Shown here one piece after another: positions 22,794-28,292 of a stretch of DNA of 64,000 nucleotides. The DNA comes from Corynebacterium fournieri. Its GTDB lineage: Bacteria > Actinomycetota > Actinomycetes > Mycobacteriales > Mycobacteriaceae. The notes under the pieces are model-generated. The model searched no databases and was not told the DNA's origin. It saw only the letters and a program-made list of their open reading frames with translations. The stretch lies in contig NZ_CP047210.1 in assembly GCF_030408775.1 (NCBI RefSeq), positions 1,488,001 through 1,552,000 on the forward strand, in the 5' to 3' direction. The translations under genes were made by a program, and so were the position numbers. The first letter of the stretch is position 1, and each line of letters starts with the position of its first letter.

Positions 22794-22827
22794 CAGCTCA
22801 CTATCAGTCACACTCTCGCGATTTGTG

Positions 22828-22833
22828 TATTTT
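22828..22833 (+). promoter_or_regulatory. Candidate leaderless -10 of the SUFU-domain gene (TATTTT)
   Basis: Hexamer ends 7 nt before ATG 22841; no ribosome site is visible. It would drive the whole four-gene cluster. Confidence 0.5.
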
Positions 22834-22840
22834 CGGTCAC

Positions 22841-23479
22841 ATGACCAACGCGCAGACCCCACAGGACATTGTCGACTACCGCCTTGCCCCACTGTTGGGT
22901 GAAGAATACTCGGTATTCCACGAGCTCATCTCGGACGAGCTGCACATCGACGTATATTGCTGGGCCCCCACCGAGCAGCGTCAATTCTGGACGCTGTGCA
23001 CCTCGGGGATGAACGAGTACCGGATGCAGATGCCACCCGGAAAGGAAGAGTTCAACCGCACAGAGCTGGTGATGACGCTTCCGGACGATTGGCCGCTTGC
23101 AGAGATCGGTTCTCAAAACGGCCCCGAAGGTGACGCGATCAGCTGGCCAGTAACCCTGCTCAAGTCCACCGCTCGCCTGCCCAAAGACATGGAGACATGG
23201 CTGTCCTACGGAACCTCGAGCCAGGCGGGGCTCGACCCGAGCGAGACCTATCCGGGCAGCGAATTCTCCGGCTTCATCATCGGCGGTGCACTGACGGTTG
23301 ATGCAGAAGGAGATTTTCTGCGCACCCCCGTGGGCGACGAAGCCGTCCACTTCTTCGGCGTCTACCCCCTCTACGCCGACGAGCTGCAGGCATACCTCGC
23401 CGGTGACGACATTTTGAGCAAGCTCCACGAACTCGGTGTCGCCGAAGGTGTCTACCCAGGACGCCCATCCGTTGCTTAA
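22841..23479 (+). CDS. SUFU (suppressor of fused)-domain protein, possible immunity protein
   Basis: 212-residue cytoplasmic protein resembling bacterial SUFU-domain proteins: an N-terminal YSVFHELISDELHIDVYCW element, TSGMNEYRM, a TELVMTLPDDW strand, DAISWPVTLLKSTARLPKDMETW, and a C-terminal VHFFGVYPLYADEL segment. In bacteria this domain often occurs as an immunity protein of polymorphic toxin systems. It is the first gene of a four-gene unit and no toxin is adjacent. ATG 22841 is preferred over an upstream GTG on leaderless-promoter grounds. Confidence 0.75.
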   Translation: MTNAQTPQDIVDYRLAPLLGEEYSVFHELISDELHIDVYCWAPTEQRQFWTLCTSGMNEYRMQMPPGKEEFNRTELVMTLPDDWPLAEIGSQNGPEGDAISWPVTLLKSTARLPKDMETWLSYGTSSQAGLDPSETYPGSEFSGFIIGGALTVDAEGDFLRTPVGDEAVHFFGVYPLYADELQAYLAGDDILSKLHELGVAEGVYPGRPSVA

Positions 23480-23502
23480 CTCAGGAAGTCAAGGAGAACA
23501 CG

Positions 23503-24009
23503 GTGCTTTGCCACAAAATTGAGCACACGATCGGCACGGTGGACTTTGTATTCGACCCATCGATCTCCATGTTGGATATGGAAGAAGCCCAGCATTTCAG
23601 CATGATCGACGGCCAGCATTTCGACGTGTTGGAAAGCTGTTACGCCTCGGACGGATCCCCCTACCCGCGTTACGGCATTACCGAATCCATCGGCATGCTT
23701 ATCGCTCCAGCCGATGCAGCCCCCGCTATCCGAGACGCTCTCAACCAGCAGGGTGCCCGCATCGCCGAGTGCACGCTGACGAGCCAGTTCGGCGACTACG
23801 TCGGCTTCCGCGCATTCAACCTCTTCGAGGACACACCCCATACTCCGGTGTTCCGAATCCGAACCTCACCCGACAACCCCGACCTGTGGATGGACCAGTA
23901 CTACACCGCCGAATTTGCAGAATGGCTCAAAGCAAACTTCGACACCCGTGGTACCCGCATTCGGCTGGTTGACAAAGACCCCTACTTCTACCGACCCGAC
24001 AAAAAATAG
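23503..24009 (+). CDS. Unrecognised protein in immunity-like cluster, 168 residues
   Basis: Soluble acidic protein with no signal peptide. GTG 23503 is preceded by AGGAG at 6 nt. The order is a His/Asp-rich N-terminus (VDFVFDPSISMLDM), a LIAPADAAPAIRDAL helix, and a C-terminus with PVFRIRTSP, WMDQYYTAEFAEWLKANF. The last part faintly recalls the end of DUF1629/Imm11 proteins, but this is a weak impression. Gaps of 23 nt to the SUFU gene and 10 nt to the next suggest one transcript. It is visibly more A-rich than the flanking metabolic genes. Confidence 0.65.
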   Translation: MLCHKIEHTIGTVDFVFDPSISMLDMEEAQHFSMIDGQHFDVLESCYASDGSPYPRYGITESIGMLIAPADAAPAIRDALNQQGARIAECTLTSQFGDYVGFRAFNLFEDTPHTPVFRIRTSPDNPDLWMDQYYTAEFAEWLKANFDTRGTRIRLVDKDPYFYRPDKK

Positions 24010-24019
24010 GAGTGCTGCC

Positions 24020-24655
24020 ATGTCCTCGCCGACAATCAACCTCGACCAGTACCTCGCCGACACCGAACCCGCCCCAATGCCCGACCTGGCGTGGGAGGAA
24101 GCCAAGGCGATCTTTGCCGAGTCCAACGACCCAGAAACGCACGTTGCTGTCATTGCCCCACTCGCGCGCAATTTCAGCACCTCCCGCAGCATCCCCGGCA
24201 AGGAAGTCTTAGACCTGCTCGCCGACTCCCCTGTCGCTCTCTGGGCGGTGATGATGCTTCAGGTCTACGAGGCAGCGCAGTATTCTCCGCTGGATCTGCA
24301 CCGGTTCGTCGAGGCGGCGGAAGCGCCGTCGCAAAGCGATGAACTTCTTGCCATGCACCACTGGGCCACCGCGATGCTGCACAACGAAGCACCACTCGAT
24401 GACCCGAATACGGCGCTCGCAGGTTGTCGCGCCTTTTTGGAGGTAAGCGACGGGCACAATTGGGTACGCCCCGACGTTGAGATTGCCGGCATCGTGCTCG
24501 AGGCCGCAGTTGAATATCCGGATGGGCCGATCGGACCAGTCGGCACCGAAATCATGAGGCAGTGGGAGGAACGTCTCACCACCGCGATCGAGGCGGTCGA
24601 CCCGGACTTCGCCTACACCGAAAACCAGCTGCTGAGCATCTGGAAAGACAACTAG
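24020..24655 (+). CDS. Unrecognised helical protein in immunity-like cluster, 211 residues
   Basis: Predicted almost entirely alpha-helical, acidic and soluble. It reads as repeated helix pairs (VALWAVMMLQVYEAA, LDLHRFVEAAE, LLAMHHWATAMLH, EIAGIVLEAAVE). No catalytic motif, signal peptide or membrane segment is visible and I do not recognise a family. ATG 24020 has AGGAG at 7 nt. Position in the cluster suggests an immunity or accessory role, by association only. Confidence 0.65.
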   Translation: MSSPTINLDQYLADTEPAPMPDLAWEEAKAIFAESNDPETHVAVIAPLARNFSTSRSIPGKEVLDLLADSPVALWAVMMLQVYEAAQYSPLDLHRFVEAAEAPSQSDELLAMHHWATAMLHNEAPLDDPNTALAGCRAFLEVSDGHNWVRPDVEIAGIVLEAAVEYPDGPIGPVGTEIMRQWEERLTTAIEAVDPDFAYTENQLLSIWKDN

Positions 24656-24666
24656 GGACTTCCCCG

Positions 24667-25662
24667 ATGACGTACTTCATGCGATTTGATGAGTCGATGA
24701 AGGCGATCCGCCCGTCCGACAACACGCGTCTGCGCATGCCGACGGATACCGGAGACGTTGAAGTCCACGTCTACGAAGCAAAACACCGAAGCGGCGGCGC
24801 CTCGTTGGTCGGCGTCCCCCGCACGGCTGAAAACCTGGCGGTGCTCGGTCTTCCCGCCAACACCGGGAAGCAGTCACCATGGATCATTCCACCATTCCCA
24901 CTGCTGAAGAGCGCCTTCCGTAAAGGCGGACCCTTCATCCGCGACGGAAAGATAGAACACATCCCAGACGGATTCGACCCCCAGAAGGTCGTCGTAGGCG
25001 GAGAGCAGTACCGCCCGGGACCGCCAGCGTACATTCCATACGAATTGAAGGATGACATCCCTCTCAACGTCGAAAGCGTCGACCCCACAGACTGGGACAT
25101 CGAGATGTGGGTCGGAGGGTCAGCAACTCGCGCCGCCACCGAAGAAGAACGCTCCTACCAGCTCATCCCCTGGACGTATTATCCGCTCGGGTTCCTGGAT
25201 CTGTGGCTCGAGCAGTACCGCTGCTACCACCTCGACCAAGACATCCCAGCAGAGCTAAGCCCACCAGACGAGGACATCGACCACGACGCCGAAGAATCGG
25301 AAACGCCGACCGGGCTAAAAATGCGCAAGGTAGAACTCGACGCCTCGACAGGTGAACTCGAAGGCCAACACACCGTCTACATCCAAGTGCTCGTCGATAC
25401 AGAACTCGACCATGCGATCACCGCCACCGGACACGAAGCAAACGGCTACTTCCTCGAAGGACTGGCGTGCTACCTCCAATCAGCCGACCGCATTGATCCC
25501 AGCCTCCAACTCGACCCAGAAGGCGAAGGCATCGGCATCTACGGCAACCCCGCACACGTCGAGAAAGCCCAGACTGCTTTCAGGAGAATCGCTGAAACTC
25601 CGTCGAAGATCGCAGGGCTGGTCGAGCAAGCCGAAGCAGCAGGCATCGAATTCGACGACTAG
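24667..25662 (+). CDS. Two-part protein with Imm51-like C-terminal domain
   Basis: 331 residues. Residues 1-205 are unrecognised, Pro/Gly-rich in the middle (PPFPLLKSAFRKGGP; GEQYRPGPPAYIPY) with a short aromatic stretch (IPWTYYPLGFLDLWLEQY). An acidic linker (about 200-220) leads to a C-terminal domain (about 230-331) with GHEANGYFLEGLACYLQS and SLQLDPEGEGIGIYG, which resembles Imm51-family immunity domains. Last gene of the cluster, 11 nt after the preceding one; weak ribosome site. The Imm51 call is from memory of the family pattern. Confidence 0.6.
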   Translation: MTYFMRFDESMKAIRPSDNTRLRMPTDTGDVEVHVYEAKHRSGGASLVGVPRTAENLAVLGLPANTGKQSPWIIPPFPLLKSAFRKGGPFIRDGKIEHIPDGFDPQKVVVGGEQYRPGPPAYIPYELKDDIPLNVESVDPTDWDIEMWVGGSATRAATEEERSYQLIPWTYYPLGFLDLWLEQYRCYHLDQDIPAELSPPDEDIDHDAEESETPTGLKMRKVELDASTGELEGQHTVYIQVLVDTELDHAITATGHEANGYFLEGLACYLQSADRIDPSLQLDPEGEGIGIYGNPAHVEKAQTAFRRIAETPSKIAGLVEQAEAAGIEFDD

Positions 25663-25705
25663 TTACCGGTGCGTCAGACCATCCAGTTCGCGTGGCGTCC
25701 GCCAC

Positions 25706-25863
25706 ACTATGCAGCTGCATAGTGAGCTCCCCGTTCACGCGACTATGCCGCCGCATAGTAAATCGAGCCCGCCAGACTATGCCACTGCATAGTGATTCGC
25801 ACTCGGGAAAAACTATGCCACTGCATAGAGAATCAAGCCCTCCCGACTATGCCGCTGCATAGT
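25706..25863. repeat. Array of five 18-bp palindromes
   Basis: Five copies of ACTATGC-N4-GCATAGT at 25706, 25742, 25776, 25812 and 25846; the fourth ends in A instead of T. Centres vary (AGCT, CGCC, CACT, CACT, CGCT) while the 7-bp arms are conserved. Spacing alternates 36, 34, 36, 34 bp, with spacers of 18, 16, 18 and 16 nt; the two 16-nt spacers resemble each other. It lies between the convergent ends of the immunity-like cluster and the UvrA-like gene, so it is not an obvious promoter region. No T tract follows. A hairpin array in the transcript or a multi-site protein-binding DNA element are both possible. Confidence 0.9.
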
Positions 25864-25879
25864 CCCCACCAACACCGAT

Positions 25880-28285
25880 CTAGGCTGACCGCTCCGCCAA
25901 CACCTTCCCGGTCGCGGTATCGCGCTCAGCCAACTCGGCCGGAGTGCCTGCAGCGACCACTTCCCCGCCGTCGGCGCCGGCGCCTGGGCCCATCTCAATC
26001 ACGCGGTCCGCTTGCGCGATGACAGAAAGGTCGTGCTCGACCACGATCACGGTTTGGCTCGCATCGACCAAACTGTTGAGTTCCTGCACCAGCAGCGCAA
26101 TATCGGCCGGGTGCAGGCCGGTGGTCGGCTCGTCCAGCAGGTACACGGTGTGGCCCCGGCGCGAATTGCGGGAACGCTGAAGCTCCGTGGCCAGCTTGAT
26201 GCGCTGCGCCTCGCCGCCGGACAATTCCGGCGCGCCCTGGCCCAGCCGCAGGTAGCCCAGCCCAACGGCTTGCAGGGTTTCCACGGCGCGCAGGATCTTC
26301 GGTTCGTCGGCGAACACGTCCGCGGCTTCGTCGACAGTCAGCTCGAGCACTTCCGCGATGGTCAGCCCCTCCCAGGTCACCTCGAGGGTCTCGTCGTTGT
26401 AGCGCGCACCGCCGCAGTCCGGACAGGTGGTGTACGAGCCGGGCAGAAACACCAGCTCAACCTCGATCTTGCCGGCGCCGCCGCAGGTGGGGCACTGGCC
26501 TTGCTTCACGTTGTAGGAAAAGCGCGACACGGTCCATTTGCGGTGCTTCGCCTCGTCGGTGCCGGCGAACAGTTTGCGCACGCCGTCGAAAAGCCCAGTG
26601 TACGTCGCCAGCGTCGAGCGTGGCGTGCGCCCGATGGGCTTTTGGGTGATCTGCACGACGCGGCTGACAGCATCAAAGCCTTCTTGCTTATCGACGACCC
26701 ACTCGCCGTCTTGCCCTACCTCATCGTCCTCATCGACGACGGTGGACGCCGCCTCGCGCAGCACCCCGGCGAGCACGGTGCTCACCAGCGTGGATTTGCC
26801 GGAGCCGGACACGCCCGCCACGGCGGTGAACTGGCCACGGCCGAAGTCCACATCGAGGCCGTCGATGGAGCGCGCGTGCACGCCGGAAAGCGACAGTTGG
26901 CCGGTGGCGGACCGCGGGTCGTCGTTGAGCGAAAGTGCCCGGTTCGCCAACGCCTTCGCGGTGGGCGCGTCACCGGTGTACTCGCTGGTGGGACCGGCAT
27001 AGACCACCTCGCCGCCGCGTTCGCCGGCGAGCGGGCCGACGTCCACCAAGTAGTCGGTCTGGGCGACCAGCTCCATGTCGTGCTCGACTAAGAGCACCGA
27101 GTTGCCGGCATCGATGAAGCGGCGGCAGATATCCAGCACCGCGCCGCGCTCGGCGGGGTGCAGGCCAGCAGACGGCTCGTCCAGGACGTACGCCACGCCG
27201 AACAAGCCCGAGCGCAGCTGGGCGGAGAGCCGGATGCGCTGCAGCTCACCGGCGGACAGCGTCGGCGCGGGGCGGTCCAGGCTCAAGTGCGCCAGGCCCA
27301 AATCGAGCGCGGACTGCAGCGCGGGCAGGATCTGCCTGAGCAGCAGATCCTCGGCGGAGCCTTCTTGCGGATCCTGCGCGGAGAGCACCTCGTAGACCTG
27401 GTCCAGCGGCAGGGCGCCGAGCTCGTCGATAGGTATGCCTGCGTAGGTGACCTTGAGCGCCTCCGGATTGAGGCGGCGGCCGCGGCAGGTCTCGCACACG
27501 CGCGATTCCATGTAGGACAGCACGCGTTTGCGCAGCGTGTCAGAGTTGGTCTCCGCGAGCGTGTTGGTCAAGTACGACGCCACGGAGCGCCACGTGCCCT
27601 TGTAGTTGCGCTGGATCTGATCCTCGCCGCGAAGCGGCTTGACGGTGACCACGGGGCGCTCGTCGGTGAACAGAATCCACTCGCGGTCTTTCTGAGGCAG
27701 GTCCTGCCAGGGCGAATCCAGGTCGTAGCCCAGGGTGGCCAGGATGTCGTGGAAGTTCTTGCCCGCCCAGGCGCCGGGCCAGGCCTTAATGGCGCCGTCC
27801 TCGATGGACAGCGTCGGATCCGGCACCATCGATTCCTCGGTCGGCTCGTGCACCACACCCGTGCCCTGGCACGTCGGGCACATGCCCTCCGGTGTATTCG
27901 GAGAAAACGAGTCGGAGTACAGCCCCTTCGGGTTGTCGCCGGAGCGCGAGTACAACAGGCGGATGCTGTTGGACAGTGCGGAGACGGTACCCACCGTCGA
28001 GCGCGCACCGCCGCCGGAGGTGGACTGCTGCAGCGCAACAGTGGGCGGCAGGCCCTCCACCGAGCCGACCTGCGGGTCCACCGCGGAGCCGATGAGACGG
28101 CGCGCGAACGGCGCCACCGATTCCAGGTAGCGCCGTTGGCCTTCGCCATGGATGGTGCCGAATGCCAGCGAGGACTTCCCCGAGCCCGACACCCCGGTTA
28201 CCGCGACGAGCGTGCCACGCGGAATGTCCACGTCCACGTTGCGGAGATTGTGTAGGTGGGCATCGCGAACTTCAATTCCAGGCAT
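25880..28285 (-). CDS. UvrA-like ABC ATPase lacking the UvrB-binding domain
   Basis: 801 residues against about 950 for UvrA. Two ABC modules: Walker A at 31-39 and 491-499, signatures LSAGELQR (343-350) and LSGGEAQR (688-695), Walker B YVLDEPSAGLHP and YLLDEPTTGLHP. The second zinc finger is intact (C598, C601, C621, C624). The first retains only one Cys pair before the signature (C136, C139), and the spacing from Walker A shows the UvrB-binding region is absent. This fits UvrA2/DrrC-like proteins rather than the excision-repair UvrA. ATG 28285 is set by a -10 ending 7 nt upstream. Confidence 0.9.
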   Translation of the reverse strand: MPGIEVRDAHLHNLRNVDVDIPRGTLVAVTGVSGSGKSSLAFGTIHGEGQRRYLESVAPFARRLIGSAVDPQVGSVEGLPPTVALQQSTSGGGARSTVGTVSALSNSIRLLYSRSGDNPKGLYSDSFSPNTPEGMCPTCQGTGVVHEPTEESMVPDPTLSIEDGAIKAWPGAWAGKNFHDILATLGYDLDSPWQDLPQKDREWILFTDERPVVTVKPLRGEDQIQRNYKGTWRSVASYLTNTLAETNSDTLRKRVLSYMESRVCETCRGRRLNPEALKVTYAGIPIDELGALPLDQVYEVLSAQDPQEGSAEDLLLRQILPALQSALDLGLAHLSLDRPAPTLSAGELQRIRLSAQLRSGLFGVAYVLDEPSAGLHPAERGAVLDICRRFIDAGNSVLLVEHDMELVAQTDYLVDVGPLAGERGGEVVYAGPTSEYTGDAPTAKALANRALSLNDDPRSATGQLSLSGVHARSIDGLDVDFGRGQFTAVAGVSGSGKSTLVSTVLAGVLREAASTVVDEDDEVGQDGEWVVDKQEGFDAVSRVVQITQKPIGRTPRSTLATYTGLFDGVRKLFAGTDEAKHRKWTVSRFSYNVKQGQCPTCGGAGKIEVELVFLPGSYTTCPDCGGARYNDETLEVTWEGLTIAEVLELTVDEAADVFADEPKILRAVETLQAVGLGYLRLGQGAPELSGGEAQRIKLATELQRSRNSRRGHTVYLLDEPTTGLHPADIALLVQELNSLVDASQTVIVVEHDLSVIAQADRVIEMGPGAGADGGEVVAAGTPAELAERDTATGKVLAERSA

Positions 28286-28292
28286 GCCCACC

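Follow-up and report, generated by a model that had tools for sequence, protein, structure and literature searches.

The window analyzed here, the whole stretch of 64 kb, comprises positions 1488001 to 1552000 of the single 2,389,603-bp contig of a Corynebacterium genome, labeled G000. In it, an array of five palindromes of the form ACTATGC-N4-GCATAGT fills most of the gap between two convergent genes. The array is thus downstream of both neighbors, as the original prediction had it: a 366-aa open reading frame (ORF) ends at 25662 on the plus strand, and a gene encoding a UvrA-like protein ends at 25880 on the minus strand. The features of this locus (locus A), in window coordinates, are as follows.

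24562..25662, plus strand: left neighbor, 366-aa ORF, no Pfam match, uncertain start codon
25706..25863, no strand: complete five-palindrome array (locus A), within convergent gap 25663-25879
25706..25723, no strand: palindrome 1, ACTATGC-AGCT-GCATAGT, 0 mismatches
25742..25759, no strand: palindrome 2, ACTATGC-CGCC-GCATAGT, 0 mismatches
25776..25793, no strand: palindrome 3, ACTATGC-CACT-GCATAGT, 0 mismatches
25812..25829, no strand: palindrome 4, ACTATGC-CACT-GCATAGA, 1 mismatch
25846..25863, no strand: palindrome 5, ACTATGC-CGCT-GCATAGT, 0 mismatches
25742..25793, plus strand: copy 1 of a duplicated 52-nt pair unit, 85% identical to copy 2 (25812-25863), 70-bp spacing
25880..28291, minus strand: right neighbor, UvrA-like ABC protein, convergent; its 3' end adjoins arrays in four relatives too

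At ≤3 mismatches, the window has exactly five ACTATGC-N4-GCATAGT sites; none of 100 dinucleotide shuffles of the window had five (mean, 0.72; largest, 4). The arms are perfect in four of the five units, and the fourth unit has a single mismatch (GCATAGA). The sites start at 25706, 25742, 25776, 25812, and 25846, which gives the predicted 36/34/36/34 spacing, and the proposed copying of a 70-bp pair unit was borne out by the 85% identity of 25742-25793 and 25812-25863 over 52 nt. Two other descriptions held in part. The spacers do resemble each other, but they are 18/16/18/16 nt long instead of 16 nt throughout; the four central bases do vary, but not freely, reading AGCT, CGCC, CACT, CACT, and CGCT. 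The suggestion that the sites lie on similar faces of the helix failed: at 10.5 bp per turn their phases are 0, 154, 240, 34, and 120 degrees, and the spacings in relatives differ (34, 44 to 46, 53 to 57, 67, and 92).

When the whole genome was searched at ≤2 mismatches, 10 sites were found at three loci inside 71 kb, and not at many unrelated loci, the pattern that the original prediction had considered adverse to a system-specific role. The two loci outside the window and the gene associated with one of them are as follows (contig coordinates; the names ileS, pknL, and aroG were assigned from our reading of the sequences).

1554728-1554864: locus B array, three sites, just past the ileS stop; the middle locus, upstream of an HNH gene
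1554601 down to 1553294: HNH gene, 436 aa, start ∼126 nt from array B, beside ileS
1583986 and 1585002: locus C, two sites, between convergent pknL and aroG

The HNH gene is 1.3 kb beyond the end of the window and so was out of sight when the original prediction was made. Locus A is about 40 to 41 kb from the HNH-gene locus and locus C is 30 kb from it; both are without an HNH gene, and both are in convergent 3'-3' gaps. No HNH relics were detected by tblastn at 1e-8 at loci A and C of relatives.

The 436-aa protein is a member of the DUF222/HNH (13E12-type) superfamily, matching Pfam HNH (PF01844; E, 1.4e-10) and DUF222 (PF02720; E, 2.2e-6), both above the curated cutoffs. Proteins of this type are present in multiple copies in many Actinobacteria. 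The N-terminal part contains a stretch that, judged by eye, resembles a helix-turn-helix, and the HNH catalytic residues are invariant across all 26 aligned members. Matches to solved structures cover the HNH domain only, and that domain matches the IscB model weakly (36 bits; cutoff, 175). Carriage by phages or plasmids was rejected: there was one weak phage match and one distant plasmid match, and none of 142 pattern-matching viral stretches encodes a relative.

Four relatives (G002, G038, G016, and G069) have an array beside the same UvrA-like gene, corresponding to locus A, and an array plus an HNH gene beside ileS, corresponding to locus B; locus C has counterparts in G002 and G038. Locus A has 5 copies of the palindrome in G000, 10 in G002, 10 in G038, 5 in G016, and 4 in G069; for locus B the numbers are 3, 4, 6, 3, and 3, and for locus C they are 2, 1, and 5 in G000, G002, and G038. 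Among the 34 locus A sites of the five species, the arms have no mismatch in 20, one in 13, two in 1, and three to five in none.

Between a pabC-like gene and the locus A array (window 22823-25662) are a SUFU-domain gene and ORFs of 168, 246, and 366 aa without Pfam matches. In G002, the SUFU gene and a portion of the 246-aa ORF occupy the same place beside the array; in G038, G016, and G069 both are unmatched and the pabC-like gene adjoins the array. Accessory genes seem to enter beside this array. In G002 and G038, the HNH gene is preceded at a distance of ∼79 nt by a second palindrome, TGTCCACT-TC-AGTGGACA (L039 3120-3450 and L042 3240-3660), which is possibly another operator. At locus C, G000 and G038 share a ∼360-bp segment, lying between palindromes, with 95.5% identity but in inverted orientation relative to the locus (L012 4150-4520; L041 3660-4020), as if flipped or reinserted between repeats.

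Of the 151 genomes of the genus, 136 match the HNH protein at E of 0.001, many of the matches being partial. From the matches listed we took 70 HNH loci (30 supplied by the tool and a further 40 picked by hand, nearly all with N-terminal coverage); L147, which had no match in the scan, was excluded, so that the final set comprises 69 loci from 35 genomes. A YGC-N3/4-GCR palindrome, with one mispair allowed, is present within 450 nt upstream of 51 of these 69 short-subfamily genes; 36 have at least two sites, and there are 119 sites in all. The controls gave 2/22 for canonical DUF222-HNH genes and 5/69 for coding stretches. The difference between 51/69 and 2/22 has a Fisher P value of 7e-8, which overstates independence because the loci are related; note also that the regions used for the count are those from which the palindrome plan was drawn up, the controls being the canonical genes and the coding stretches. 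When any palindrome with an arm of ≥7 within 500 nt upstream was counted, 54/69 loci had one (132 in all), compared to a mean of 20 loci (maximum, 29) and 24 palindromes (maximum, 34) in shuffles and to 23 loci and 30 palindromes in coding stretches. The same scan found 6 palindromes at 6/22 loci of canonical genes, and a narrower loop limit gave 3/22.

The common plan is YGC-N3 or N4-GCR with outer bases that are specific to the lineage; the half-site variants include GCATAGT, GCAGAGT, GCGGAGT, GCGGACT, GCATACT, GCAGAA, GCGGAA, and GCGCACA. No site of this plan was found upstream of 18 of the 69 genes. Among these 18 are four G066 genes, belonging to a group with shorter-armed TATGC-ATT-GCATA arrays (seen in two upstream regions), and the G091 gene (L174), which has a decayed palindrome upstream. 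L177 has sites just downstream of the gene and not upstream. Overall, a cognate site was found downstream of only 2 of 52 Corynebacterium genes, of which just 25 had 1,000 nt to inspect. As judged from these scans, the palindrome linkage is a property of the short subfamily, whose members are about 410 to 485 aa long and match DUF222 weakly.

LexA-like boxes (≤3 mismatches to the consensus) are present upstream of 48/69 short-subfamily genes, at a median position of −38, and of 19/22 canonical DUF222-HNH genes (L074-L087 and L058-L073), versus 0/69 coding windows. On one strand, the frequency was 45/69 genes versus 8/345 shuffles. The box is closer to the start than every palindrome in 32 of 35 palindrome-bearing genes. 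Because canonical genes carry the boxes too, SOS control may extend to the whole superfamily; 13E12-family HNH genes are among the LexA targets given in the available part of an M. tuberculosis network paper (PMC4181829).

Protein distances and half-site distances were correlated among 53 proteins (Mantel r = 0.305, 0/2,000 permutations), a correlation that includes shared descent. Several distinct branches of the protein tree carry half-site GCATAGT. Excluded from the tree were proteins of <300 aa, loci lacking a half-site, and two questionable half-sites; for five G066 genes the half-site was assigned manually, based on the array seen in two of their flanking regions.

We then counted sites across genomes. 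Exact ACTATGC-N4 sites occur in 11 of the 151 genus genomes, 10 of which have a matching gene. Nine carry an HNH gene with that palindrome upstream, and the G091 gene is an orthologue (94%) of the one in G087, its palindrome decayed; for G142, with two sites, a matching gene was not found among the matches listed. In 35 genomes, there are 19 ACTCTGC-N4 sites in G117, 11 in G020, and 6 in G021, all three with a cognate gene, and no more than one in each of the other 32. ASTCCGC-N3, searched in the same 35 genomes, has at least two sites in 12/12 cognate genomes and in 1/23 others, namely G066, for whose nine sites no cognate is known among the five genes that were examined. TTCTGC-NGCN, searched in 24 genomes, numbers 19 in G027, 13 in G087, 3 in G038, 2 in G000, and 1 each in G002 and G147. 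The sites of G000 and G038 are only beside their own HNH genes, and G147 has its one site though it is HNH-less. ACTATGC-N3 was found 13 times in G132, 8 in G113 (two sites being just upstream of a further HNH match), 5 in G066, and once each in G129 and G035, out of 35 genomes. The loop lengths did not mix: there are no N3 sites in the nine N4 genomes and no N4 sites in the five N3 genomes. Twelve of the 15 genomes lacking an HNH match have no sites of ACTCTGC-N4, ASTCCGC-N3, or ACTATGC-N3.

Fisher P values for dispersal were 6e-13 for ACTATGC-N4, 2e-8 for ASTCCGC-N3, and 2e-4 for ACTCTGC-N4; these overstate the association because gene-adjacent sites were counted, and part of the association follows from the definition, a cognate gene being assigned by its adjacent palindrome. 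No motif exceeded 30 exact sites in any of the genomes searched. On these counts, dispersed copies are largely confined to genomes that have an HNH gene with that same palindrome, with G142, G066, and G147 as exceptions.

Units consisting of an array plus an HNH gene have been duplicated, with 89 to 98% identity, three being present in G132 and five in G066; the identity extends for about 70 to 660 nt beyond the HNH match, and at L191 and L195 other DNA lies between the array and the gene. These intragenomic duplications in G132 and G066 make up the whole of the mobility data. Gene-less locus C of G002 and G038 has units of 34 to 42 nt that are 77 to 94% identical to units upstream of the clade's second HNH gene, and G097, G117, and G087 have arrays in which the palindromes of two HNH genes are mixed.

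Eighteen further gene-less arrays are distributed among 12 convergent, 6 codirectional, and 0 divergent gaps, the directions having been taken from the best-scoring open frames without annotation, so that some are uncertain (at L199, L201, L203, and L208 the frames cross the array, and L051 is doubtful). Together with loci A and C, 14/20 are in convergent gaps and none in divergent ones. The P value for 14 versus 0 is 6e-5, since a circle has equally many gaps of the two kinds. Both loci of G000 and both of G016 are within 50 kb of the HNH gene (P = 0.002 each), but these two cases are not independent because locus A is shared. Clustering was also seen in G087 (4/13; P = 0.0009) and G117 (2/7; P = 0.03) and was absent in G097 (0/3) and G020 (0/4).

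Among known systems, the REPs and their RAYT transposases are the nearest. According to the available part of one report, these have flanking REPs, coevolution of the two partners, REP abundance tied to the cognate enzyme, and mixed arrays (PMC2817692). The palindromes described here are likewise short, extragenic, and beside the gene for a DNA-cutting enzyme, and they share the coevolution, the cognate-tied abundance, and the mixed arrays. However, the enzyme is DUF222/HNH and not a Y1 (HuH) tyrosine transposase of the RAYT/IS200-IS605 kind; a search for the Y1 transposase domain (PF01797) gave no match in 14 of 15 genomes and one broken copy in G087. In addition, the flanking appears one-sided in Corynebacterium (a downstream site at 2/52 genes, 25 with 1,000 nt inspected), the genomes searched have 1 to 30 copies (10 in G000) versus usually over 100, and the palindromes are without the GTAG tag. 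The nuclease-palindrome system would work like REP/RAYT but is not a member of it. The accessible portion of a REP survey mentions neither HNH nor Corynebacterium (PMC3733652).

The 13E12/REP13E12 elements of Mycobacterium belong to the same superfamily, have the HNH motif, and are multicopy. In the available part of a recent preprint, REP13E12 regions are gene-conversion hotspots that lack a defined biological function (PMC13061034). What sets the short subfamily apart is its size, its weak DUF222 match, and its cognate palindromes, which only 2/22 canonical genes of the same genomes have. Free-standing HNH homing endonucleases are likewise HNH nucleases that may recognize long sites and use recombinational repair to spread. 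A homing gene, however, interrupts its own recognition site, whereas the sites here are intact both beside the gene and in gene-less arrays. CRISPR and IscB/TnpB systems share the presence of repeats beside a nuclease gene and, for IscB, the weak match of the HNH domain. In contrast to CRISPR, the repeats here are palindromic, their short spacers resemble each other, and the neighbors examined are not cas genes; in contrast to IscB/TnpB, the IscB score is below the cutoff and Rfam finds no RNA in the window. Among the matches listed in our literature search, outside which most subscription journals fall, none linked 13E12/DUF222-HNH genes to cognate palindromes.

We regard the window array, with somewhat better than even confidence, as a gene-less satellite or target cluster of the HNH nuclease's palindromes, within a REP/RAYT-like system under SOS control. 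The linkage, the lineage-specific covariation (loop length included), the dispersal, the array-plus-gene duplication, and the LexA-like boxes were demonstrated at the level of sequence. From these we infer cutting of the sites and their copying by repair. Direct recognition of the palindromes by the HNH protein is probable; their spread by the nuclease is only slightly favored over the contrary. The system would have two parts, a short DUF222/HNH endonuclease behind a LexA-like box and an array of matching palindromes upstream of the gene's promoter region. Upon DNA damage the nuclease would be made, would bind the palindromes via their symmetric arms and fixed 3- or 4-bp center, and would cut or nick them. 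Recombinational repair would copy the palindromes with their flanks and in this way build arrays, seed them in tolerated convergent gaps, and keep them alike. Such a system could be selfish or domesticated, the HNH nuclease taking the place of the tyrosine transposase. Of the three options in the original prediction, a REP/BIME-like mobile palindrome comes closest to this proposal. A protein-binding array, another option, is correct insofar as binding is likely part of the same mechanism; roles in partition, replication, or silencing are unsupported because there are only three loci, one of them tied to the nuclease gene. An array serving partition or the terminus was set aside, the sites being limited to three loci in 71 kb, one HNH-linked.

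The most serious competitor, although an unlikely one, is that the palindromes are operators and binding sites and nothing else. The HNH protein or a partner would bind them upstream to control its own gene, the gene-less arrays would serve in looping, titration, or local chromosome structure, and arrays would grow by ordinary tandem duplication without nuclease-driven spread. The position of Corynebacterium palindromes upstream of the gene, beyond the LexA-like box in 32/35 cases, fits this, as do the near-perfect locus A sites in five species (34 sites) and the placement, in other families, of a palindrome often near the gene start (8/23 loci with CGTTCCCGCGGGAACG). But gene-less arrays avoid promoters (14/20 convergent, 0 divergent), dispersed copies reach 30 per genome, ∼40-nt units with their flanks are common to locus C and HNH upstream arrays, and array-plus-gene units have moved. 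Less probable still is a decoy or safety array, in which the palindromes soak up the nuclease induced by the SOS response or permit it to act on invading or damaged DNA (defense or suicide) and are kept by selection, not drive. The LexA-like boxes, the arrays beside the gene, and the catalytic residues intact in 26/26 aligned members agree with such a function, but defense-nuclease models gave weak matches only (E of 0.008 and higher), and G000 has few gene-less arrays.

The remaining option of the original prediction, RNA hairpins, here as terminators or mRNA stabilizers for the convergent genes, would account for the convergent position and for the T4-T5 runs that follow some locus B palindromes in G002 and G038. 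In the window, though, a single palindrome of the five has a T-run, and that just on the minus strand (shuffle mean, 0.4), and an Rfam scan found nothing at gathering scores. Arms and 3- versus 4-nt centers that are lineage specific and track the HNH gene would be unexpected for terminators, and we consider this role very improbable. Finally, ordinary tandem repeats might be near HNH genes by chance, and the 70-bp unit does show tandem duplication at work. Such a coincidence, strongly disfavored, would have to produce both 51/69 versus 2/22 (P = 7e-8, overstated for related loci) and a dispersal that tracks the cognate gene for several motifs.

For the family as a whole, we would put at about even chances a broader proposal drawn from the genome comparisons. 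It is that a DNA-damage-controlled HNH family propagates and maintains its own palindromes and constitutes a second, nontransposase source of REP-like repeats, each lineage having a matched enzyme-palindrome pair (arms and 3- versus 4-bp center) and several pairs being able to share intergenic arrays. The apparent satellite relation suggests a nuclease-linked repeat of a new type. If the proposal is true, REP-like repeats are possible without tyrosine transposases and repeat spread is coupled to the SOS response; the many enzyme-site pairs found in nature would, in addition, reveal how a long palindrome is recognized by an HNH protein. Because each enzyme comes with a matched set of targets, its nuclease function is directly testable, with natural specificity variants as controls.

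Relatives of the HNH gene extend beyond the genus. In a profile search of 200 genomes of the order, 21 matched at 1e-30, G000 included; the other matching genomes scored ≤183 bits, versus 533 to 592 bits here. The palindrome CGTTCCCGCGGGAACG upstream of 8 of the 23 wider-family loci has near variants at three more loci and on a Rhodococcus plasmid. As a 16-mer it is present in 13/14 genomes of family f16 and in G192, and in 0/11 genomes of family f1, including G231, which has a homologue. Among 17 homologues in other families, 7 have it on both sides, within 1.1 kb. Possibly, the palindrome next to the gene is the ancestral state and the arrays arose within Corynebacterium. In four related genomes (G198, G242, G249, and G189), CGTTCCCGCGGGAACG is inside the HNH coding sequence.

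Look-alike repeats occur elsewhere. The CTATGC arrays of a goat-gut Bacillota metagenome-assembled genome (MAG) and two other MAGs were set aside as separate repeats, tblastn with the HNH protein (P0009) having found no relative at L091, L108, L112, and L116. In the goat-omasum MAG (JAFRZL01; L091 7049-7352 and other contigs), the repeats are CTATGCACGTGCATAG arrays with the same arms as the Corynebacterium palindromes, a period of ∼32 nt, and a location often near contig ends.
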